Assembly: GCA_024708885.1 (NCBI GenBank)
Contig: JANJXT010000058.1
Coordinates: forward strand, 1-64,000
Direction of reading: 5' to 3'
Origin: Thiobacillus sp.
GTDB taxonomy: Bacteria; Pseudomonadota; Gammaproteobacteria; Burkholderiales; Thiobacillaceae
Length of the DNA stretch: 64,000 bases
Part shown: positions 14,006 through 30,525 of the stretch, piece after piece
How the letters are laid out: each line of letters starts with the position of its first letter
Numbering within the stretch: the first letter of the stretch is position 1
Notes under the pieces: generated by a model
Database searches by the model: none
What the model was told of the DNA's origin: nothing
What the model saw: only the letters and a program-made list of their open reading frames with translations
Program-made: the position numbers and the translations under genes

Positions 14006-15229
14006 ATGTCAATCCGCCCGGCCCATCTGGTGCTGCCTTTTGCCCTGCTGCTTCTGCTCGGGCTCTGGCTGCGGCATTCGAGTGAGCCCCCACCGATCCG
14101 CATCGGGGTCCTGCATTCACTGAGCGGCACGATGGCGGCAAGCGAACGCCCGCTGGTCGATGCGGTGCGCCTGGCGGTCGAGGAGATCAATGCGGACGGC
14201 GGCCTGCTTGGCCGTCCGGTCGAAATGGTCATCGCCGACGGCAAGTCGGACGCGAGCGTCTTCGCCGCCGAAGCGGAACGGCTCATCGCCGGGGAGCGCG
14301 TCAGCGCCTTGTTCGCCTGCTGGACCTCGGCCTGCCGCAAGGCGGTGAAGCCGGTGGTGGAACGGCACCGCCACCTGTTCTTCTATCCGCTGCAATACGA
14401 AGGCCTGGAGCAGTCCCCATATATTTATTATATGGGCTCGGCACCCAACCAGCAGATCATCCCCGGCACCCGCTGGGCACTCGACACGCTGGGTAAACGC
14501 GTCTATCTGGTGGGTTCGGACTACGTGTTCCCGCGCACCGCAAACCTCATCGTCCGTGATCTCGTGCGAGCCAACCATGGCAACGTGCTCGCGGAACGCT
14601 ACCGTCCCCTGGGCGACGCCGATTTCAGCGGCATCGTCGCCGAACTACGCGCGCTGCGGCCGGACGTGGTGTTGAACACGATCAATGGCGACAGCAACGG
14701 TCATTTCTTCCGCGCGCTGCACGCCGCCGGACTCGGCGGCATCCCGGTGATGTCGTTCAGCCTTGCCGAGGATGGCCTCCGGACGATCGGCCCCGACGCC
14801 TTTCACGCCAAGCATTATGCGGTGTGGAACTATTTCCAGAGCCTGCCGGGTGGAACCAACCAGCGTTTTGTCGAGGCCTTCCGAAAACGCTACGGCGCCG
14901 ACCGCGTGACCAGCGATCCCATCGAGGCCACGTATGTCAGTGTCCAGTTGTGGGCGCAGGCCGTGCGCGACGCCCGCACCGACGAGGCGGAAACGGTCAA
15001 CCTGGCCATGGCGGTGCAGAGCATGGCCGCGCCCTCGGGGATTGCCGCGGTTGACCGGCGCACGCGTCATCTGTGGAAGCATGTGCGCATCGGCAAGGCG
15101 CGTTCCGACTATCAGTTCGAGCCGGTGTGGGAAGCGGGCGACGCATTGCGCCCGGAACCTTTCCCGGGCTACCGGTCGCGTGCCGAATGGCAAGACCTGG
15201 TCGCAGATCTGCCGGAGGCCGCTCCGTGA
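14006..15229 (+). CDS. Periplasmic amide/urea-type substrate-binding protein paired with a c-di-GMP enzyme
   Basis: 407 residues. An N-terminal hydrophobic helix (LVLPFALLLLLGLWL) serves as signal or anchor, then a type-1 periplasmic-binding fold: IRIGVLHSLSGTMAASERPL and EEINADGGLLGRPVEM are hallmarks of the UrtA/AmiC branch of ABC binding proteins. FACWTSACRKAVKPV and FFYPLQYEGLEQSPYIYYMG match the urea/short-amide group. No ABC permease or ATPase gene is near. Instead its stop codon overlaps the GTG start of the next gene, a membrane GGDEF-EAL protein, so it probably serves as that sensor's ligand-binding subunit. The ligand is a guess. Confidence 0.87.
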   Translation: MSIRPAHLVLPFALLLLLGLWLRHSSEPPPIRIGVLHSLSGTMAASERPLVDAVRLAVEEINADGGLLGRPVEMVIADGKSDASVFAAEAERLIAGERVSALFACWTSACRKAVKPVVERHRHLFFYPLQYEGLEQSPYIYYMGSAPNQQIIPGTRWALDTLGKRVYLVGSDYVFPRTANLIVRDLVRANHGNVLAERYRPLGDADFSGIVAELRALRPDVVLNTINGDSNGHFFRALHAAGLGGIPVMSFSLAEDGLRTIGPDAFHAKHYAVWNYFQSLPGGTNQRFVEAFRKRYGADRVTSDPIEATYVSVQLWAQAVRDARTDEAETVNLAMAVQSMAAPSGIAAVDRRTRHLWKHVRIGKARSDYQFEPVWEAGDALRPEPFPGYRSRAEWQDLVADLPEAAP

Positions 15230-18200
15230 ATACGCGCCGCATCGCCACGCGTCTCCTGCTGAGTTACCTGCTGGTGGCCGTGCTGCCGCTCGCCGGCCTC
15301 GCCGCGTTCTTTCTCGCTTCGTTCGAGACTTCGCTGCGCGAGACCGTGCTGGCGAACATGGCAGCCATCGCCGACAAGAAGGCCGAGCAGATCGACACCT
15401 ACGTGGCCGGGCGGCTGAACGACGCCCGGCTGTTCAGCGAGCGCCCCAGCCTGCGCCAACACATGGCCGCGCTCACGCGGGCCTACCGCGCGGGCGGCCT
15501 TCAAGGGGCGGCATACCGCGCCGCCGCCGCCGAGGCCCATGGCAACTTCCGTCGCACCTTCGAATCGGACAGCTTTCACGACCTGCTGCTGATCGATCCG
15601 GCCGGGAACGTCGTGTTTTCCATGGCGAAGGAGGCGGACCTGGGCGCCCATCTCAGGGATGGCGCTCACCGCGGCAGCGAACTCGCGCGCGGATTCGAAC
15701 TGACCATACGCGCCCTGCAGACCCATGTCAGCCGCTTCGCGCCGTATGCCCCCTCGGGCAACCGGCCGGCCGCGTTCCTCCTGGCGCCGGTCATGGAAGA
15801 CGGACTGGCTATCGGCGTGCTGGCCCTGCAGCTGGACGTGAAGAAACTGGAGGCGGTGACGTCCGACCGCACCGGCCTGGGCCGCAGCGGCGAGACCCTG
15901 CTGGCGCAGGAGATCGACGGCGAAGCGCTCTTCATGGGGCCGCTCAGGCACGTTTCGCAGGCAGCGTTCCGCTACCGGGTTCCGCTGCGCTCGACGGCCT
16001 TGCCGATCCAGCAGGTGCTGCGGGGTGAACACGGCAGCGGTTTCGTGCGCGATTATGCCGATGTGGACGTGGTCGCCGCCTGGCGCTACCTGCCTGCGCT
16101 GGCCTGGGGCATGGTGGTGAAGATCGACGCCGACGAGGCTCTGGCGCCTGTGGTACGGCTGCGCCACATCACCTATTCGGCCGTGCTCACCTTCCTGGTG
16201 CTGTCCGCGCTCGCCGCGCTGTATCTCGGGCGGGGGTTGTCACGTCCCATCCAGGCGCTGACCGCGGTCGCCGACCGCATCTCGACGGGAGATCTCGGCC
16301 AGCGCGCCGAACTCGGCGACATCGAGGAATTGAACCGGCTCGCGTTGGCGTTCAATCACATGACGACGGCCCTGTCCGAGTCCCGCCAGAATCTTGAAGC
16401 CCGGGTCGAGGCGCGTTCGCAGGAATTGCGCGCGCTCACCACGCTGCAGAATGCGATTCTCGACAACGCCAGCGCGCTGGTGGCGCTGCTCGACCGCGAC
16501 GGCCGCATCTGCCGGTTCAACCGTGCATGCGAGACGCTGAGCCAGTATTCCTTCGCCGAGGTCGAAGGACGGTTCGTCTGGGATTTCCTGCTGCCGCCCG
16601 AGGAGTGCGACGACATGCGCGACAAGGCGTTCCGCGCACTCGTGGAGCATCCGGAGCGGGTGCACGGCGTCCACACCAACCACTGGGTCGCGCGCGACGG
16701 CACGCGGCGGCTGATCGAATGGTCGAACAGCCTGCTGCTCGACGAGCAGGGGCGGGTCCAGTTCCTGATCGGCATCGGCATCGACGTCACCGACAAGGCG
16801 CTTGCCGCCGCAGCGCTCGCGGAAAGCGAAAAAAACCTGCATCATGCCCAGCGTATCGCCCAGGTCGGCAGCTGGGAGCTCGACCTTGTCAGTGGCAAGC
16901 TCGACTGGTCGGACGAAATCTATCGCCTGTTCGAAATCGACAGGACGCGTTTTGGCGCCACTTACGACGCTTTTCTCGCAGGCATCCATCCGGACGACCG
17001 CGAGCGGGTGAACCGCGCCTATTCCGAATCGGTGGCCTCCCGCACCCCTTACGAGATCACCCACCGCCTGCGCATGGCGGATGGTCGTATCAAGTGGGTG
17101 AACGAGCGCTGCGAGACACAGTACGACGAAACCGGCCGCGCGCTGCGTTCCAGCGGCACCATCCAGGACATTACCGCGCGCAAACTCGCCGACGAAACCC
17201 TGCGCCTCTACGCCAATGTTTTCGAGCACAGCGGCGAGGCCATCCTCATCACCGACAGCGCAGGCCGCATTCTGGCGGTGAATCCCGCCTTCACGCAGTT
17301 GACCGGATACACGCTTGCGGACATCGCGGGCAAGAACCCCAAAATCCTGTCCTCCGGGCAGACGTCCGCCGAGCTCTACCGGGCCATGTGGACGTCGCTC
17401 GACGAGACCGGCTACTGGCAGGGCGAGATCGTAGACCGTCGCAAGGATGGCTCGCTGTACCCGAAATGGCTGACGATTTCCGCCGTGCGCCAGCCCGATG
17501 GCAGCGTTACGCATTACGTCGGCAGCTTCACCGATATTTCCGAGCGCAAGCAGGTCGAGGCGCAGATCACCCAGATGGCCTACCACGACGGACTGACCGG
17601 CATGCTCAACCGCATCGGGCTGCAAAGCCAGCTGGACCAGGCGCTCGCCATGGCCGGCCGGGAGCGGCGCGAATTGGCCGTGATTTTCCTTGACGTGGAC
17701 CGTTTCAAGACCATCAACGACACCATGGGGCACGCGGTCGGCGACGAGCTGCTCGTCGAGGTGGCGTATCGCCTGCGCAACAGCCTGCGCGCCAGCGACA
17801 TCGTCGCGCGCTTCGGCGGCGACGAATTCGTGGCGGTGCTGACCGAGGTGGACGATGCCCCCGCGGCGGCTCGCGTGGCCGAGAAGATCCTGCACGCGCT
17901 GGGCGCACCCTACCTCATCGACGAACACGAACTGCATTCGAGCGCAAGCATCGGCATCGCCTTCTATCCGGGCGACGGCAATGACGCGGACACGCTGATG
18001 AAGAACGCCGACACCGCGATGTACCATGCCAAGGCGCAGGGGCGGAACAACCTGCAGTTCTTCACCGCGGAAATGAACCAGGCGGCAGTGAGGCGTCTGA
18101 CGCTCGAGCAGGATCTGCGGGCTGCCATGGAAGCCCGCCAGTTCGTGCTGCATTACCAGCCGCAGTTCGATGGTGCCGCCGGCCGGCCCGTTGGCGTCGA

Positions 18201-18867
18201 AGCGCTGGTGCGTTGGCAGCACCCGCGCAAGGGGCTCTTGGCGCCGGCTGACTTCATCTCGGTCGCCGAGGAAACCGGGCTGATCCTGCAACTTGGCGAC
18301 TGGGTCCTGGACGAGGCCTGCCGCCAGTTGCGCGACTGGCGCGAAGCCGGCTTGACCGATCTCGTCATGGCGGTCAACCTGTCGGCGCATCAGTTGCGCG
18401 CGCCCGGTCTGCTGGCCAGCGTTGCGGACGCCCTCGACAGATATGCCCTGCAAGGCCCCGAACTCGAACTGGAAGTCACCGAATCCGTGGCGATGCACGA
18501 CCCCGACACCAGCGTCCGCAAGCTGAAGGCGCTGCGCGACCTCGGCGTGCGGCTGACGATCGACGACTTCGGTACCGGCTATTCCTCGCTCAGTTATCTC
18601 AAGCTGCTGCCAATCCAGGCCCTCAAGCTCGACAAATCCTTCGTGCGCGACATCGAGACCGACAGCAACGACGTCGCCATCTGCACCGCCACCATCGCCC
18701 TGGCACACAGTCTCGGCCTTGCCGTGGTGGCCGAAGGCGTCGAGAGCGAGGCGCAGCGCCTGCTGCTCGCCTCGCACCAATGCGATTTCATGCAAGGCTA
18801 CCTGTTCAGCCGGCCGCTCCCGTCGGACGCCGCGCAGGAATTCATCCGCGCGTGGCTTGCCAGGTGA
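15226..18867 (+). CDS. Membrane-bound sensor with HAMP, three PAS, GGDEF and EAL domains
   Basis: 1213 residues from the GTG at 15226, with GGAGG seven bases upstream and four-base overlap with the binding-protein gene. Order: helix ~8-30; periplasmic sensor ~31-308 (Cache-like); helix ~315-336; HAMP ~337-390; short coiled coil; PAS ~405-525; PAS ~540-655; PAS ~660-780; GGDEF ~785-950; EAL ~965-1205. The GGDEF signature is intact at ~864-868 with an inhibitory RxxD site five residues upstream. EALVRW and DDFGTGYSSL show an intact phosphodiesterase. It can in principle both make and degrade c-di-GMP in response to an extracellular signal. Confidence 0.94.
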   Translation: MNTRRIATRLLLSYLLVAVLPLAGLAAFFLASFETSLRETVLANMAAIADKKAEQIDTYVAGRLNDARLFSERPSLRQHMAALTRAYRAGGLQGAAYRAAAAEAHGNFRRTFESDSFHDLLLIDPAGNVVFSMAKEADLGAHLRDGAHRGSELARGFELTIRALQTHVSRFAPYAPSGNRPAAFLLAPVMEDGLAIGVLALQLDVKKLEAVTSDRTGLGRSGETLLAQEIDGEALFMGPLRHVSQAAFRYRVPLRSTALPIQQVLRGEHGSGFVRDYADVDVVAAWRYLPALAWGMVVKIDADEALAPVVRLRHITYSAVLTFLVLSALAALYLGRGLSRPIQALTAVADRISTGDLGQRAELGDIEELNRLALAFNHMTTALSESRQNLEARVEARSQELRALTTLQNAILDNASALVALLDRDGRICRFNRACETLSQYSFAEVEGRFVWDFLLPPEECDDMRDKAFRALVEHPERVHGVHTNHWVARDGTRRLIEWSNSLLLDEQGRVQFLIGIGIDVTDKALAAAALAESEKNLHHAQRIAQVGSWELDLVSGKLDWSDEIYRLFEIDRTRFGATYDAFLAGIHPDDRERVNRAYSESVASRTPYEITHRLRMADGRIKWVNERCETQYDETGRALRSSGTIQDITARKLADETLRLYANVFEHSGEAILITDSAGRILAVNPAFTQLTGYTLADIAGKNPKILSSGQTSAELYRAMWTSLDETGYWQGEIVDRRKDGSLYPKWLTISAVRQPDGSVTHYVGSFTDISERKQVEAQITQMAYHDGLTGMLNRIGLQSQLDQALAMAGRERRELAVIFLDVDRFKTINDTMGHAVGDELLVEVAYRLRNSLRASDIVARFGGDEFVAVLTEVDDAPAAARVAEKILHALGAPYLIDEHELHSSASIGIAFYPGDGNDADTLMKNADTAMYHAKAQGRNNLQFFTAEMNQAAVRRLTLEQDLRAAMEARQFVLHYQPQFDGAAGRPVGVEALVRWQHPRKGLLAPADFISVAEETGLILQLGDWVLDEACRQLRDWREAGLTDLVMAVNLSAHQLRAPGLLASVADALDRYALQGPELELEVTESVAMHDPDTSVRKLKALRDLGVRLTIDDFGTGYSSLSYLKLLPIQALKLDKSFVRDIETDSNDVAICTATIALAHSLGLAVVAEGVESEAQRLLLASHQCDFMQGYLFSRPLPSDAAQEFIRAWLAR

Positions 18868-21421: not shown

Positions 21422-21928
21422 ATGCGTCAGCCATTCGCCCGACTGCTCCTGCTCACCCTCGCCATGGGTCTTTCCGTATCGGCCTCGGGTAAGGAACCGG
21501 CCACGTTCACCTCGCCCAGCCTTACCCCCGAGGCCGCGCTGAAGGTGGCGCAGGCTGCGCTCCAGGCATGTCAGAAAGCCGGTTTCAATGCGGCGGTGGC
21601 CGTGGCCGACCGTGGCGGCGTAACCCAGGTGATGATTCGCGACCGCTTCGCCGGCGCCCACACGCCGCACGCCGCGATGGGCAAGGCATGGACCGCGGCC
21701 AGCTTCCGTACCAATACTTCCGAACTCATGGAGCGGACGCAACCTGGCAGCGCCTCCTACGGCATCCGCGACCTGCCGGGCGTGGTGATGCTGGGCGGCG
21801 GCCTGATCATCGAGTCACACGGTGCGCTGGTCGGCGCGATCGGCGTGTCCGGCGCGCCCTCCGGCGCCGACGACGATCGCTGCGCCAAGGCCGGCATCGA
21901 CGCCATTCACGACGCGCTGGAGTTCTAG
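21422..21928 (+). CDS. Exported GlcG/HbpS-family protein
   Basis: 168 residues. A Sec signal peptide (LLLLTLAMGLSVSASG) precedes a GlcG/HbpS fold: SLTPEAALKVAQAALQACQK, VAVADRGGVTQVMIRDRFAGA, and a central GVVMLGGGLIIESHGALVGAIGVSG strand-loop region. Relatives bind haem or are linked to glycolate metabolism or stress sensing. AAGGAG lies eight bases before the ATG. Its TAG stop overlaps the stop of the opposing fusion gene by four bases (CTAG), so transcription converges here. The ligand is not known. Confidence 0.88.
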   Translation: MRQPFARLLLLTLAMGLSVSASGKEPATFTSPSLTPEAALKVAQAALQACQKAGFNAAVAVADRGGVTQVMIRDRFAGAHTPHAAMGKAWTAASFRTNTSELMERTQPGSASYGIRDLPGVVMLGGGLIIESHGALVGAIGVSGAPSGADDDRCAKAGIDAIHDALEF

Positions 21929-24351
21929 CCTGCGTTCGCCTGCGCCGGCCAGGCGCGGGTGATGGTGGTGCGCAGCAGCACTTCCGCCTCCGTCGCCGGC
22001 ACCGGCCGGCTGAACAGGAAACCCTGCATGTCCGTGCAGCCGACATCGCAGAGGAAGGCGTGCTGCGCCGCCGTTTCGACACCTTCGGCGATGATGCCCA
22101 GGCGCAGGCTTTTGGCGAGCTGGACGATGGCCTGGACGATGGCGGCCTGATCGGGGTCGCGGGTGACGTCGCGCACGAATGACTGGTCGATCTTCAGGCG
22201 GTCGACGGCGAAGCGCTTGAGGTAGCTGAGCGAGGAATAGCCGGTGCCGAAGTCGTCGAGCGACAGGCGCACGCCCAGCGCCTTGAGCCGCTGCACGGTG
22301 TCGAGCGTGTTCTCGACATCCTGCAGAAGGATCGACTCGGTCAGCTCGAGTTCGAGCAGATGGGGCGGCAGGCCAGTGCGCGCCAGTGCGCCCGCCACCG
22401 TCTCGACGAGGCCTTCGCGGCGAAACTGCATGGCCGAAAGATTCACCGACATGACGAGATCGGCAAGGCCGGCGTGGCGCCAGGCCTGCGCCTGACGGCA
22501 TGCCTGCTCCAGCACCCAGGCACCGATCGGCACGATGAGGCCGCAGTCCTCCGCCACTGGAATGAAACGGCTCGGCGGCACGTCGCCCAGATCCGGATTG
22601 CGCCAGCGCAGCAAGGCCTCGACACCCATCGCACGCCCGCTGGCGACATCGAACTGCGGCTGGTAATGCAGATGCAACTCGGCGCGGAAAAGCGCCTGAT
22701 GCAGGCCGTTTTGCAGCAGCAGGTGTTCCTGCGCCTGGAGGTTCATCTGCTCGTCGAAAAAACGATAGGTGTTGCGCCCGGCATTCTTGGCGTTGTACAT
22801 CGCCGTGTCGGCCTTCTGCAGCAAGCGGTCGAAATCGCTGCCGTCTTCCGGGTAGACCACGACACCGATGCTGCACGAGACAGTCAGTTCGCGTCCGCCA
22901 ATCAGCACCGGCTCGGCGAGACGTTCGAGGATTTCTCCGGCGACCCGCTCGACCGCCTCCATGTCCGGCACGTTGTCGAGCAGCACGATGAATTCGTCGC
23001 CCCCCTGGCGGCTGATGGTGTCGCTGTCGCGTGCGCAGCGCGCCAGGCGGGCGACCACGGACATCAGCAGCTCATCGCCTGCCGCGTGGCCGAGGGTGTC
23101 GTTGACCACCTTGAAGTTGTCCAGATCGAGAAACAGCAGGCCTACCCTGGCATGCGTCCGTCTCGCCTGCGCCACCGCGTGCTCGAAGCGATCGCGCAGC
23201 AGCACGCGGTTGGGCAGACCGGTCAATACGTCGTGGTGCGCCAGATATTCGATTTGCGCCTCGGTCTGCAAACGCTCCGTGACGTCACGATCGACGCCCT
23301 GGTAGGCGATCAGGCGCCCGCTCTCGTCGAACAGGGGCGCAGCGTTCGATTCGAAGATCCGCACACTGCCGTTGCGATGACGAAAGCGCAGGGTCACGTT
23401 GGACCAGCCGCGCTGTCCGGCGACCGCCTCGGCAAAGGTCGCCCGGTACAGGGACAGGTCATCCGGATGGATCAGGCTTTCCGGATCCATGGCTAAAAAT
23501 TCGTCGGTCGTATAGCCGAGCGCCTTTTGTGCGCATGAATTGCTGTAGAGGTATCGGCCATTGATGTCGACCGACCAGATCCAGTCCACCGAATTCTCGG
23601 CCATGGCACGGAAGCGTGCCTCGCTCTCGCGCAGCGCCTGTTCCATGCGCTTGCGCTCGCTGACGTCGGCGAAGGTGACGGTGGTTCCGATCAGCGTGCC
23701 ATTGCGGTAAAGCGGCTGCGAACGGTATTCCACCGGGAAGCTGGTGCCATCCTTGCGCCAATGCACTTCGTCGTCGACATGCGCCGCCTCGCCCGCCTCG
23801 GTGGCCAGACGCACGCGGCATTGCTCCCTGGGATAGGGGCGGCCGTCCGGATGCGAATGGTGGATCAGGGGATGCACGGGCTGGCCCAGCATTTCATCGC
23901 GCGTGTAGCCCAGCATGTCGAGGCAGGCGTGGTTGACGAAGGTACAGACCCCGTTCGTGTCGATTCCAAAAATGCCCTGTGGCGAGGAATCGAGCAGCAG
24001 GCGAAAGCGCGCCTCGCTTTCCCGCAGCGCCGCGACGGCGCCAGCCGGCACTTCGAAGGCCGACGGTGGAAGGGCCGCCTTGCGTGCCGCGGCGGGGTCC
24101 TGCCCCGACTTCAACCGCGCGCGCGCAGCTTCGCGCCGGCGTCGCGCCTCCCGCAGCCCCACGTCCGGGTACACCCCCAGCGCCAGCGTCTTGCGCTTGC
24201 CGCCGAAGCGGTAATCCAGCCGCCAGTAGCGCGAGCCATCCGGCTTGAGCAGCAGATACATGCCGCCACCATCGGCAAGCTTGAGCGGCTTGTCGGCGGG
24301 CATCGCCTGACGGATGCGCTGGACGGTAAGGGGGGCAGCAATGCGTGTCAC
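21925..24351 (-). CDS. Integrase arm-type DNA-binding domain fused to PAS-PAS-GGDEF-EAL
   Basis: 808 residues. Residues ~8-92 are a DUF4102 domain, the arm-site DNA-binding module of P4-type tyrosine integrases: KLADGGGMYLLLKPDGSRYW, KTLALGVYPDVGLREARRRR and SGQDPAAARK match it closely. No tyrosine-recombinase catalytic domain follows. Instead come PAS (~110-232), PAS (~240-360), GGDEF (~370-535) and EAL (~550-795). GGDEF is intact (~450-454) with an RxxD site at ~441; EAL is intact (~578) with DDFGTGYSS. It has no signal or membrane segment. The protein could be a DNA-tethered, dual-function c-di-GMP enzyme; this is inference. Confidence 0.93.
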   Translation of the reverse strand: MTRIAAPLTVQRIRQAMPADKPLKLADGGGMYLLLKPDGSRYWRLDYRFGGKRKTLALGVYPDVGLREARRRREAARARLKSGQDPAAARKAALPPSAFEVPAGAVAALRESEARFRLLLDSSPQGIFGIDTNGVCTFVNHACLDMLGYTRDEMLGQPVHPLIHHSHPDGRPYPREQCRVRLATEAGEAAHVDDEVHWRKDGTSFPVEYRSQPLYRNGTLIGTTVTFADVSERKRMEQALRESEARFRAMAENSVDWIWSVDINGRYLYSNSCAQKALGYTTDEFLAMDPESLIHPDDLSLYRATFAEAVAGQRGWSNVTLRFRHRNGSVRIFESNAAPLFDESGRLIAYQGVDRDVTERLQTEAQIEYLAHHDVLTGLPNRVLLRDRFEHAVAQARRTHARVGLLFLDLDNFKVVNDTLGHAAGDELLMSVVARLARCARDSDTISRQGGDEFIVLLDNVPDMEAVERVAGEILERLAEPVLIGGRELTVSCSIGVVVYPEDGSDFDRLLQKADTAMYNAKNAGRNTYRFFDEQMNLQAQEHLLLQNGLHQALFRAELHLHYQPQFDVASGRAMGVEALLRWRNPDLGDVPPSRFIPVAEDCGLIVPIGAWVLEQACRQAQAWRHAGLADLVMSVNLSAMQFRREGLVETVAGALARTGLPPHLLELELTESILLQDVENTLDTVQRLKALGVRLSLDDFGTGYSSLSYLKRFAVDRLKIDQSFVRDVTRDPDQAAIVQAIVQLAKSLRLGIIAEGVETAAQHAFLCDVGCTDMQGFLFSRPVPATEAEVLLRTTITRAWPAQANAG

Positions 24352-24424
24352 GGGAGAAGGTTGCTCTGGCCAGCCTGTGGCAAGGTTTTCATGATACCGT
24401 CAACGATACCGTCAATCGTGTACT

Positions 24425-24447
24425 TGGTAATTGGTATGCAATTACCA
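24425..24447. promoter_or_regulatory. Inverted repeat upstream of the DUF4102-GGDEF-EAL gene
   Basis: TGGTAATTG and CAATTACCA are perfect nine-base arms around GTATG, 74 bases upstream of the fusion gene's ATG in an AT-richer 166-base gap. A second feature nearer the gene (about 24394-24417) is a 12-base tandem repeat, GATACCGTCAAC then GATACCGTCAAT. The palindrome could be an operator or the arm-type site bound by the protein's own DUF4102 domain. Both ideas are untested. Confidence 0.55.
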
Positions 24448-24517
24448 GGGAAGCGCTGAATGATCTTGAAAACCTCAGTTGACCGCTGCGGCGATCGGGC
24501 AGCGGCCGCGTGTGGTG

Positions 24518-25993
24518 TCAGGCCACCAGATACTTGATCCCGACGGCCTGCCAGTGTGCCGTTTCCTCATCCAGCGCGTGGCGGGTGAGCGGGCGGCGGT
24601 CGAGCCAGCCTTGCGGCAGCACGAGGCCGAAACGCTTGCCGTTGGCGTCCACTTTCAGTTCGCCCAGGCGCGGCGCGGCGCGGCTGCGGCACAGGATCAC
24701 CGCCTGACGCAGCAGCCAGACGAGCAGGCGCTCCTGCTCCGGCACCGTGCCGGCAGCGAAGGCCGGCAGCTTGGTGAGCGCGCCGCGCTGCGCGCGCGCG
24801 AGCAGCGCCAGGCGCGCCTGCTCGGTACGCGAGAAACCGGGCATGTCGGCATGCTCCAGGATGTAGCCGGAATGGCGGTGGTAACCGCTGTGCGAAACCG
24901 ACAGGCCGATTTCATGCAGGCGCGCGGCCCAGTCGAGAACGCGTGCGTCGTGTTCATCCGGGCTGCCCGCGGCCGCCCACAGCTGCAGGACCACGCGCTT
25001 CACGCGCGTGGCCTGTTGCGTGTCGATGTGATAGCGACGCATGAATTCGTCGACCGTCGCCTCGCGCATGTCCTGTTTGTGAAAGCGCCCCAGCAGGTCG
25101 TAGAGGATACCTTCGCGCATCGCGGTCTCGGCGACGTCCATCTGCTCGATCCCGAGCTCGCCAAAAATGCCGGCCATGATCGCGAAACCGCCGGCGATGA
25201 CGGGACGGCGGTCCCGCGCGAGTCCCGCCAGTTGCAGCGCGTCGACGTGGCCCGCCTTGGCGAGCTGCATCCGCAGACGTGCGAGGCCGTCGGCGGTGAT
25301 GCCGTGCGCGGACCAGCCGTTCTGTTCGAGGATCTCGCGCAGCGCGCGCGCGGTACCGCTCGATCCGACCGCCTCCTGCCAGTTGGCCTGGGAGAATTCG
25401 CGCGCGACGCGCTCGACCTCGATGCGTGCGGCCATCTCCGCCGCCTTCAGTGCCGTCTTGCTGACGGTGCCGCCGGAGAAGAAACGGCGCGAGAAATTGA
25501 TGCAGCCCATGTGCAGGCTCTCGCGTTCGTGCGGCTTCAGGCCGTGGCCGATGATGAGTTCCGTGGAGCCGCCACCGATGTCGATCACCAGGCGGCGCCC
25601 CGACGAGGCCGGCAGCGAATGGGCGACGCCCAGGTAGATGAGGCGTGCTTCTTCGCGTCCGGCGACGACCTCGATCGGGTGGCCCAGCGCGCGCTCGGCT
25701 TTGGCGATGAATTCCACGGCGTTCCGGGCGATCCGCAGTGTGGACGTGCCGATGCAGCGCACCGCGTGCGGCGGCATGCCGCGCAGCCGCTCGCCGAAGC
25801 GGCGCAGGCAGGCCAGCGCACGCACCTGGGTCACATCGTCGAGCGATTTGTCCGCCGTGAGTCCCGCGGCAAGGCGCACGGTTTCCTTCAGCGCGTCGAG
25901 CGGATAGATCTGGCCGCCCACCACGCGCGCGACTTCCAGCCGGAACGAGTTGGAGCCCAGATCGACCGCAGCAAGGGTGTCGTGGCTTTTCAT
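24518..25993 (-). CDS. ppx: Exopolyphosphatase / pppGpp phosphohydrolase (Ppx/GppA family)
   Basis: 491 residues. AAVDLGSNSFRLEVARV and VIDIGGGSTELIIG are the two phosphate-binding motifs of the ASKHA-fold Ppx/GppA proteins, and a C-terminal HD-like helical domain has HDARVLDWAARLHEIG. It hydrolyses polyphosphate or pppGpp. The ATG at 25993 overlaps the TGA of the upstream SpmAB-like gene, so they are co-transcribed. The frame is open upstream but that belongs to the neighbouring gene. Ppx versus GppA cannot be separated by eye. Confidence 0.93.
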   Translation of the reverse strand: MKSHDTLAAVDLGSNSFRLEVARVVGGQIYPLDALKETVRLAAGLTADKSLDDVTQVRALACLRRFGERLRGMPPHAVRCIGTSTLRIARNAVEFIAKAERALGHPIEVVAGREEARLIYLGVAHSLPASSGRRLVIDIGGGSTELIIGHGLKPHERESLHMGCINFSRRFFSGGTVSKTALKAAEMAARIEVERVAREFSQANWQEAVGSSGTARALREILEQNGWSAHGITADGLARLRMQLAKAGHVDALQLAGLARDRRPVIAGGFAIMAGIFGELGIEQMDVAETAMREGILYDLLGRFHKQDMREATVDEFMRRYHIDTQQATRVKRVVLQLWAAAGSPDEHDARVLDWAARLHEIGLSVSHSGYHRHSGYILEHADMPGFSRTEQARLALLARAQRGALTKLPAFAAGTVPEQERLLVWLLRQAVILCRSRAAPRLGELKVDANGKRFGLVLPQGWLDRRPLTRHALDEETAHWQAVGIKYLVA

Positions 25994-28920: not shown

Positions 28921-30525
28921 ATGCTCTGCTCGCCCGAGGAACTCGTCCAGAAGAACCAGGCCGTAACCGAGGCCTGGGCGCGCTATCGTGCCGTGCCGAG
29001 CTTCGAGAGCTTCGTCGAACTGGCGGTGTCGATCAACAGCTTCACCGAATTCCTCATCGACAAGGGTGTGGCCGCCCTCCATCACGCCAGCCACCAGCTC
29101 GAACAGGTGGCGCTGGCGCGCTTCAACGAAGAAGTCGCGCACCCCCTGCCGCAGCACGAACTGGATGATCTCGATCAGCGCATCGCCACGCTGGCGCAGA
29201 TGACCCGCAGCCACGCGGACGCAACCGCCGGCCGTGTCGAACGGCGCATGGAAACCACGCTGGGAACGCGCAACACGCTCGAAGTCGTCCATACCTGGCT
29301 GATCGGACACGACGCCGAGCCGTGGCAGGCATTGCTCGCGCAGCTGGGCTACTTCGGCATCGGCGCCGAATTCCTCACCTGGGACAGCGCGCTGCCGGAG
29401 GACAACGGTGGCGCGCCGCTGCTGCTGCTCGATCTCAACAGCCTGCCGGTGGCGGAATGGAGCGAGCGCATCCAGGTCCTGCGCCAGCGCTATGCCATGG
29501 GACAGATCATCTGCATCGGCGTGCCTTCGGAATTCGAACCCCTGCAGCAGGCATTGCGCGGCGGCTGCGACGGCTGCCTGCTCGAAGGCACCTCGCTGCA
29601 CGGCATCGTCGAGCGCATCATGGAACTCAACGAGCGGCAGGAACAGGAAGCCTATCGCGTGCTCATCGTCGAGGACTCCAAGACCGCCAGCCATCTGATC
29701 CAGCGCACCCTCGAGGAAAACCAGATCGTCTCGGAAATCGTCAACGATCCGCGCCAGGTGCTCAGCGCCCTGCGCCAGTTCAATCCGGACCTGATCCTGA
29801 TGGACATGTACATGCCGAACTGCACCGGCGTGGAGGCTGCGCGCATCATCCGCCAGCACGGCGAATTCCTCAGTACACCGATCGTCTATCTGTCGGGCGA
29901 GACCAACGTCGCGCTGCAGGTCGACGCCATGCGCCTGGGTGGCGATCATTTCCTCACCAAGCCGTTCAACCCGGTGTTCCTCAACGCCATCGTCAAGAGC
30001 AAGATCGAGCGTTACCGCGCCCTGCGGCGCACCATGTACCACGACAGCCTCACCGGCCTGCTCAACCATTCCAGCGGCAAGCACACCCTGGACATGCTGC
30101 TCTCGAGCGTCGGCCATGAAGGCGGGCTTTTGTCCGTGGTGATGATGGACATCGACCACTTCAAGAAGGTGAACGACAGCTACGGCCACCCCGTCGGTGA
30201 TCAGGTCATCCGCAGCCTGTCATGGCTGCTGAAGCAGCGCCTGCGCAAGCACGACGTGCTGTGTCGCTACGGCGGCGAGGAGTTCCTCATCGCCCTGCCG
30301 CACACCGACGCCGACCAGGCTTTCGTCATCATGGATCGCATCCGCCAGGACTTCAGCCAGATCCGCCACCCCTTCGGCAACAGCCATTTTCTCGCCACCG
30401 GCAGCGGCGGCATCGCCACGTATTCGCTGTATCGGACCGGCGATGCGCTCATCAAGGCGGCCGACGAGGCGCTCTACCAGGCCAAGCGCAGCGGCCGCAA
30501 CCGCATCGAGATCAGCGGCACGTAA
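28921..30525 (+). CDS. Diguanylate cyclase response regulator with tandem receiver domains
   Basis: 534 residues. After a helical N-terminus (~1-115), a first receiver-like domain at ~120-235 lacks a clear phospho-acceptor and probably plays a structural role. The second receiver (~240-360) is complete: VLIVEDSKTASHL, LILMDMYMPN with the acceptor aspartate, and FLTKPFNP. A GGDEF domain follows with intact GGEEF and an RxxD inhibitory site (RKHD) five residues upstream, so it should make c-di-GMP when phosphorylated. The start ATG at 28921 sits 235 bases after the divergent GyrI-like gene. The cognate kinase is not in the window. Confidence 0.93.
   Translation: MLCSPEELVQKNQAVTEAWARYRAVPSFESFVELAVSINSFTEFLIDKGVAALHHASHQLEQVALARFNEEVAHPLPQHELDDLDQRIATLAQMTRSHADATAGRVERRMETTLGTRNTLEVVHTWLIGHDAEPWQALLAQLGYFGIGAEFLTWDSALPEDNGGAPLLLLDLNSLPVAEWSERIQVLRQRYAMGQIICIGVPSEFEPLQQALRGGCDGCLLEGTSLHGIVERIMELNERQEQEAYRVLIVEDSKTASHLIQRTLEENQIVSEIVNDPRQVLSALRQFNPDLILMDMYMPNCTGVEAARIIRQHGEFLSTPIVYLSGETNVALQVDAMRLGGDHFLTKPFNPVFLNAIVKSKIERYRALRRTMYHDSLTGLLNHSSGKHTLDMLLSSVGHEGGLLSVVMMDIDHFKKVNDSYGHPVGDQVIRSLSWLLKQRLRKHDVLCRYGGEEFLIALPHTDADQAFVIMDRIRQDFSQIRHPFGNSHFLATGSGGIATYSLYRTGDALIKAADEALYQAKRSGRNRIEISGT

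Follow-up and report, generated by a model that had tools for sequence, protein, structure and literature searches.

An integrase arm DNA-binding domain fused to a PAS-PAS-GGDEF-EAL enzyme in Thiobacillus, with putative arm-type sites upstream of the gene

Results

The fusion gene and its domains

We analysed a 64,000-nucleotide stretch of DNA from the sulfur bacterium Thiobacillus sp. (contig JANJXT010000058.1; hereafter the window), which belongs to a 2.56-Mb draft genome that is 84% complete, and focused on a gene at 21925-24351 on the minus strand. The gene starts with GTG and encodes 808 amino acids (aa) without interruption, and its open reading frame and Pfam matches give the order Arm-DNA-bind_3, PAS, PAS, GGDEF and EAL. 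An initial annotation, made from the letters alone, had proposed that the first ~92 residues are the DUF4102 module of P4-type integrases, that the recombinase part is missing, and that two PAS domains and a complete enzyme for synthesis and hydrolysis of cyclic di-GMP (c-di-GMP) follow. All of this was borne out by Pfam. PF13356 Arm-DNA-bind_3, which we take to be the DUF4102 of older papers, matched residues 8-93 (24073-24330, minus strand) with an E value of 2.4e-24 and 85.7 bits against a cut-off of 27. On the same strand follow PAS domain 1 (residues 115-230; 23662-24009), PAS domain 2 (residues 252-360; 23272-23598), the GGDEF domain (residues 371-527; 22771-23241; E 5e-53) and the EAL domain (residues 550-783; 22003-22704; E 6.7e-73). 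A phage-integrase catalytic domain was not among the nine Pfam families listed for the protein, and no core-binding or catalytic recombinase family was found in it or in eight further fusions.

The catalytic signatures had also been described as intact, and alignment of 21 fusions agreed: GGDEF at 450-454, the RxxD motif (R441 and D444) and EAL at 578-580 are invariant, as are further EAL active-site positions, whose roles are presumed here. The closest match among named genomes was Thiobacillus sp. 65-29, with 87% identity across residues 1-802. Structure matches found by Foldseek (PA0861, MorA, MucR and DosP) share the C-terminal PAS, GGDEF and EAL domains with intact motifs, and we know of no arm DNA-binding domain in any of these four proteins.

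An AlphaFold model of the arm domain had a mean predicted local distance difference test score of 84.9 and matched the solved P4-type arm domain 3ju0 with a template modelling score of 0.82, a root-mean-square deviation of 0.9 and 52% identity. It also matched the solved arm domains 3jtz and 3rmp, the title of the latter concerning attP recognition by P4-like integrases. The whole-protein model reached a predicted template modelling score of 0.41, and the arrangement of its domains was therefore left unused. Taken together, these results confirm that an integrase arm domain is fused to a PAS-PAS-GGDEF-EAL enzyme.

The fusion is conserved within Thiobacillus

A search of 60 relatives with the whole protein returned full-length relatives at 86% and 70% identity, together with many same-genus matches that started only near residue 104. 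The frames of these matches also open with an arm domain, followed by additional PAS and often GAF domains (Pfam content read on eight fusions), indicating that an insertion had cut the matches short. Because the sensor stretch between the arm and GGDEF varies in make-up, the arm and the enzyme stand out as the constant parts of the protein.

We used an alignment of 21 fusion arm domains (mean column identity 82%) as a search profile, which gave a match of 146 to 179 bits in 34 of the 56 Thiobacillus genomes. Thirty-three of these matches lie in open frames of 824-1244 aa, and that of genome G008 lies in a separate 127-aa frame. The lowest-scoring fusion arm (146.1 bits) stands above all integrases of the genus, the top one of which reaches 134.8 bits in a frame of 420 aa. 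For 28 of the 34 (the 21 aligned fusions and seven more), a single frame was read through from the arm to GGDEF-EAL; five of the remaining six are known by frame length alone, and the sixth is that of G008, with its arm apart. Of the 27 genomes with a completeness of 90% or more and a contamination of 5% or less, 17 carry the fusion arm type, and in G032 the gene body, close to a contig end, had no arm match. The question raised with the initial annotation, whether the fusion is conserved in related genomes with an intact frame, is thus answered for this genus. A single-genome artefact or a frame break was considered and rejected, as the fusion occurs in open frames across the genus.

Outside Thiobacillus, no arm match past strict cut-offs (1e-26, 1e-30 and 1e-26) was found in a frame longer than 601 aa among 399 genomes of the order, 369 of the class and 398 of the phylum, samples that partly overlap; since scoring was confined to the top 12-13 candidates of each genome, weaker arm domains could be missed. 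In a tree of arms scoring at least 95 bits, the 34 fusion arms fell on one side of a branch from 102 integrase arms, with a Shimodaira-Hasegawa-like approximate likelihood-ratio support of 90 that is not starred and comes from few alignment columns. This placement is consistent with one capture. The median pairwise ratio of nonsynonymous to synonymous substitution rates (dN/dS), calculated for 21 of the 34 fusions over those pairs whose dS lay within 0.1-1.5, was 0.245 for the arm, 0.171 and 0.266 for PAS1 and PAS2, 0.200 for GGDEF and 0.172 for EAL. Judged by these ratios, the arm domain is under purifying selection.

A direct pair of half-sites lies upstream of the fusion genes

Upstream of the fusion gene of the window, two copies of TGACGGTA on the minus strand are putative arm-type half-sites. 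Half-site 1 (24407-24414) starts at -63 from the GTG and half-site 2 (24395-24402) at -51, which gives a period of 12 bp. The TGACGG pair of this gene occupies 24393-24415, inside the region 24352-24517 that had been suggested for a binding test with the purified N-terminal domain. When the window genome was searched with at most one mismatch, TTGACGGTANNNNTGACGG was found once, at 24397-24415, upstream of the fusion gene. Beyond the half-sites lies a perfect inverted repeat with 9-bp arms and a 5-bp loop, read in the sequence at 24425-24447 (tggtaattg-gtatg-caattacca); it overlaps a TTcGTACca-like box that is present near the same position in many fusion genes.

The repeat is widespread in the family. 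With start codons picked throughout by one rule (nearest to the arm start), the 34 aligned upstream regions showed a direct repeat with a 12-bp period about 50-67 bp ahead of the start codon, and 28 of the 34 fusion genes are preceded by the pair TGACGG-N6-TGACGG with no more than one mismatch over its 12 positions. Such a pair appeared in a fraction of 0.00044 of 6800 mononucleotide shuffles. When 33 of the 34 fusions were anchored on their best motif match, the motif columns were the most informative (several reached 2.0 bits) and the spacer and most flanks carried little information; the high values at the motif are partly by construction, because the columns were anchored on it. A block with the same repeat also appeared in a multiple alignment built without anchoring. 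Many fusions have a TAxxAT-like box ~10 bp after the half-sites, a spacing at which the half-sites would straddle the -35 region, an arrangement compatible with repression as well as with activation.

Three arm residues go with the sites of P4-type integrases

In the arm model, residues 46, 48 and 53 lie on the adjacent strands 41-49 and 52-61; beta-sheets of this kind can read the major groove. The window protein carries D46/R48/R53, as do 32 of the 34 fusions; the other two are D/G/R, so that D46 and R53 are kept in all 34. We compared these residues with the motifs upstream of true integrases of the P4 type, at loci among L151-L206, L207-L271 and L272-L311. Frames longer than 700 aa and matches with less than 120 nucleotides (nt) upstream were set aside first; of the 101 arm matches, 85 formed the training set once arms with at least 92 identical positions had been dropped. 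TGACGG was found within 130 nt upstream of 15 of 15 integrases with D46/R48/R53 (D/R/R) arms, compared with 1 of 70 others, and GGGG-type sites accompanied 40 of 41 arms with K46 and E53 (K/E). The motif and the residue classes emerged from L151-L201 and had been recorded before a held-out set was assembled, all 40 regions of which were used. In this set, TGACGG went with 4 of 5 D/R/R arms and 1 of 35 others (Fisher p 2.7e-4), and GGGG-type sites went with 22 of 22 K/E arms.

On a tree of the catalytic part (at least 80 bits and 330 aa, 106 rows), the association holds over independent pairs: the D/R/R class gave 8, of which a mean of 6.9 went the same way and 0 the opposite way (median p 0.016), and the K/E class gave 11, with a mean of 9.7 the same way and 0 the opposite way (median p 0.002). 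The motifs differ for the remaining arm types: TTGGTA is frequent where Q53 is combined with A, N or S at 46, and the type DYT..KRKT goes with GTTACTG in three integrases. The nearest D/R/R integrases, from Thiobacillus and other genera, have the TGACGGTA motif within 100 bp upstream of the int start codon, in direct or inverted arrangement. Of 20 D/R/R integrases, 8 carry the direct 12-bp pair with no more than one mismatch, and every one of these pairs has the same orientation as at the fusion genes. These results suggest that residues 46, 48 and 53 may form a general specificity code of P4-type integrases, which deserves a study of its own, and the correspondence offers a cheap and direct way to test which arm sites the members of a large integrase family recognise.

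The same residues bear on what the arm now does. A beta-sheet domain could in general be repurposed, and the arm might bind a protein or RNA partner or the membrane and so localise the enzyme, with DNA binding lost; given that the very residues linked to the sites are retained (D46 and R53 in 34 of 34 fusions, R48 in 32), we regard this as very unlikely. It is also conceivable that the arm is a passive relic, or an appendage for folding or dimerisation, and that the upstream repeats persist as promoter parts and not as targets of the protein. TTGACGG does look like a -35 element, and three fusions with an intact arm (L137, L139 and L144) have a degraded second half-site. Against this reading, the arm is under purifying selection, the motif stands in two copies at a 12-bp period in 28 of 34 cases and not as a single -35-like element, and half-site and residue class fit the code of true integrases. 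Moreover, the fusions changed at position 48 or 52 have lost site quality: L150 and L190 (both R48G, K52Q) show a degraded second half-site and degradation of both half-sites, respectively, and L189 (K52T) has no site. We therefore consider a relic unlikely.

Several observations weigh against the reading, set out below, of a captured arm that regulates its own gene. The link between altered residues and decayed sites is slender, because the arm tree places L150 and L190 as sisters, close to L137, L139 and L144. Six of the 34 fusion upstream regions exceed one mismatch, and 22 of the 56 genus genomes had no match to the arm profile. A sigma-70 promoter scan of 24300-24560 found nothing, the TAxxAT-like box is not evident at the gene of the window, and the upstream conservation could in part be promoter conservation. 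Among the integrases, 12 of 20 with D/R/R lack the direct 12-bp pair, the held-out D/R/R integrase L273 lacks TGACGG and the K/E integrase L278 has one. An arm-only tree (at least 80 bits, 118 rows) gave 2 pairs and does not resolve the code.

Matches to the double site elsewhere

We searched 12 fusion genomes for the full double site with at most three mismatches and obtained 25 matches in 11 of them and none in G035. Eleven lie at the gene's own promoter and 14 elsewhere, nine of which were looked at. Eight of the 14 were fetched, and each overlaps an open frame of 120 aa or more, a finding of little weight in GC-rich DNA; by our reading three fall in hisA and one (L333) at an apparent gene start. 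Another of the 14, G023:1800814, is the island pair of L107. A small regulon beyond the own promoter may thus exist.

An alternative reading is that the arm tethers the enzyme mainly to arm sites of resident integrative islands, where it would compete with the island integrases and couple excision or island expression to c-di-GMP. Six fusion-bearing genomes (G023, G015, G010, G019, G006 and G025) do contain exact TTGACGGTAnnnnTGACGG pairs at other places, and four of these pairs (L107, L108, L111 and L112) adjoin a short sequence read as the end of guaA. However, a second pair was not found in the window genome (an 84% complete assembly), D/R/R is absent from the frames read for its five other PF13356 matches, such pairs are also present in the fusion-free genomes G013, G007 and G020, and the own-promoter pair is the commonest feature. 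An island tether is accordingly quite unlikely in our judgement.

In a separate observation, further TGACGGTAnnnnTGACGG pairs, some with one mismatch, were seen in L107, L108, L109, L111, L112, L116 and L118. They adjoin sequence read as the 3′ end of guaA, with a full guaA-like frame in L118, and the stretches fetched around them gave no match to the fusion arm profile.

Probable capture of an integrase address by a c-di-GMP enzyme

We consider it probable that an arm domain and its arm sites were captured once by a PAS-GGDEF-EAL gene and were kept to make a DNA-binding, self-regulating c-di-GMP enzyme. The fusion, its conservation, the sites and the residue-site match are read from the sequences; from them we infer DNA binding, autoregulation with its sign, and coupling to c-di-GMP. 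In an ancestor of a Thiobacillus clade, a PAS-GGDEF-EAL gene would have acquired, from a P4-type (IntSXT/DUF4102) integrase, the N-terminal arm together with the arm sites next to the promoter, and would have retained both. The D/R/R arm is predicted to bind the direct pair of TGACGGTA half-sites, which lies about 50-67 bp ahead of its own start codon, and would thereby place the enzyme at the promoter region of its own gene. Signals sensed by the PAS/GAF domains, and c-di-GMP acting at GGDEF/EAL, may then alter the dimer and hence the occupancy of the DNA, and the outcome would be a self-regulating c-di-GMP switch that works like PdeL of E. coli.

Both halves of this proposal have precedents, and it is because the protein joins the two, an integrase address and a c-di-GMP enzyme, that we propose self-addressed autoregulation. 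On the integrase side, P4-type integrases of the IntSXT subgroup carry the DUF4102 arm-binding domain (PMC8138268), and where the promoter of an int gene overlaps arm sites, repression by the gene's own product is possible, as described for IntS of KplE1, with P4 Int cited (PMC2951348). Given this descent (P4 Int, IntS), net autorepression would be expected, and activation is possible too. The fusion shares with these integrases the arm domain, the half-site motif beside the gene and, for eight of the 20 D/R/R integrases, a direct pair with the same 12-bp period; it differs in having no core-binding or catalytic recombinase domain.

On the c-di-GMP side, E. coli PdeL (YahA) consists of a LuxR-like DNA-binding domain and an EAL domain and activates its own gene at low c-di-GMP, and a 2016 paper presents it as the sole DNA-binding trigger phosphodiesterase then known (PMC5052742). 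In both proteins an EAL enzyme follows an N-terminal DNA-binding domain, DNA binding being predicted for the fusion. That the product binds and regulates its own promoter region, and that c-di-GMP is both ligand and substrate, are described for PdeL in the same paper (PMC5052742) and are proposed here for the fusion. PdeL differs in that its LuxR-like helix-turn-helix is joined to EAL, whereas the fusion combines a beta-sheet integrase arm with PAS/GAF sensors and also a GGDEF domain, and its candidate sites are integrase arm-type direct repeats.

To our knowledge, DNA-binding domains on c-di-GMP enzymes seem rare. The initial annotation knew of no described system like this one. As regards the parts and their origin this agrees with the open-access literature, where we found no paper combining DUF4102 with GGDEF and, among the matches listed, no described integrase arm domain reused as a regulatory DNA-binding domain; as regards function, a DNA-binding c-di-GMP enzyme is already known in PdeL. 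The annotation had further offered two alternative readings, a signalling gene that captured an integrase promoter and N-terminus, and the tethering of c-di-GMP turnover to particular DNA sites. The first gains support from the arm, the integrase-type half-sites, their partly shared geometry and orientation, and the single clade. For the second, selection on the arm and sites of the cognate type suggest retained recognition, but in the window genome it narrows to one site, the gene's own upstream region. As the evidence supports capture and suggests retained recognition, the two look like stages of one history.

In its wider form, the proposal is that a self-contained address of integrase arm and arm site was reused as a c-di-GMP-responsive, self-addressed switch, became fixed in a clade of Thiobacillus, and is written in a three-residue code that is general; we see the chances of this as evenly balanced. 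If it is true, an arm module can travel together with its sites as a single functional unit, and if the three residues give the address, the same code would predict the arm sites of P4-type integrases generally.

Genomic surroundings of the fusion loci

We sampled 15 of the 34 fusion loci and the window for synteny. A formate dehydrogenase-type block, assigned by Pfam on one locus (L316), lies downstream in 9 of the 15 sampled loci. Another shared block occurs in five loci, the window among them, and two of these (L323 and L325) have the same 5′ neighbours as the first group. The shared surroundings look like vertical inheritance at a host locus. A tRNA or transfer-messenger RNA (tmRNA) gene was present at all 13 scanned TGACGG-type integrase loci, as expected of integrated elements, while 13 of the 15 fusion loci had none. 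The two matches at fusion loci are a tmRNA 3′ of the gene in L322 and a doubtful one in L326. No tRNA or tmRNA gene was found upstream of the fusion gene in the 15 loci scanned, L326 being doubtful, and no tRNA gene was found in the 64-kb window.

In L313-L321 the fusion gene lies upstream of a formate dehydrogenase N-type operon. The alpha-subunit frame is broken by a single stop in L316, L317 and L318, as for a selenoprotein, and a SelA-like frame (SelA in L316) follows in six of these nine loci. In the window, the fusion gene has a Ppx/GppA phosphatase gene as its upstream neighbour and an HbpS-like gene as its downstream neighbour. Two other c-di-GMP genes lie nearby, one encoding Cache-HAMP-PAS-GGDEF-EAL at 15073-18867, with a Cache match slightly below the Pfam cut-off, and one encoding REC-GGDEF at 28921-30525. 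Finally, one integrase of the same genome (L003, G000:C37:73796-74065 onward) lies in a 677-aa frame, compared with ~400-480 aa for most other integrases listed, and perhaps carries a C-terminal extension.

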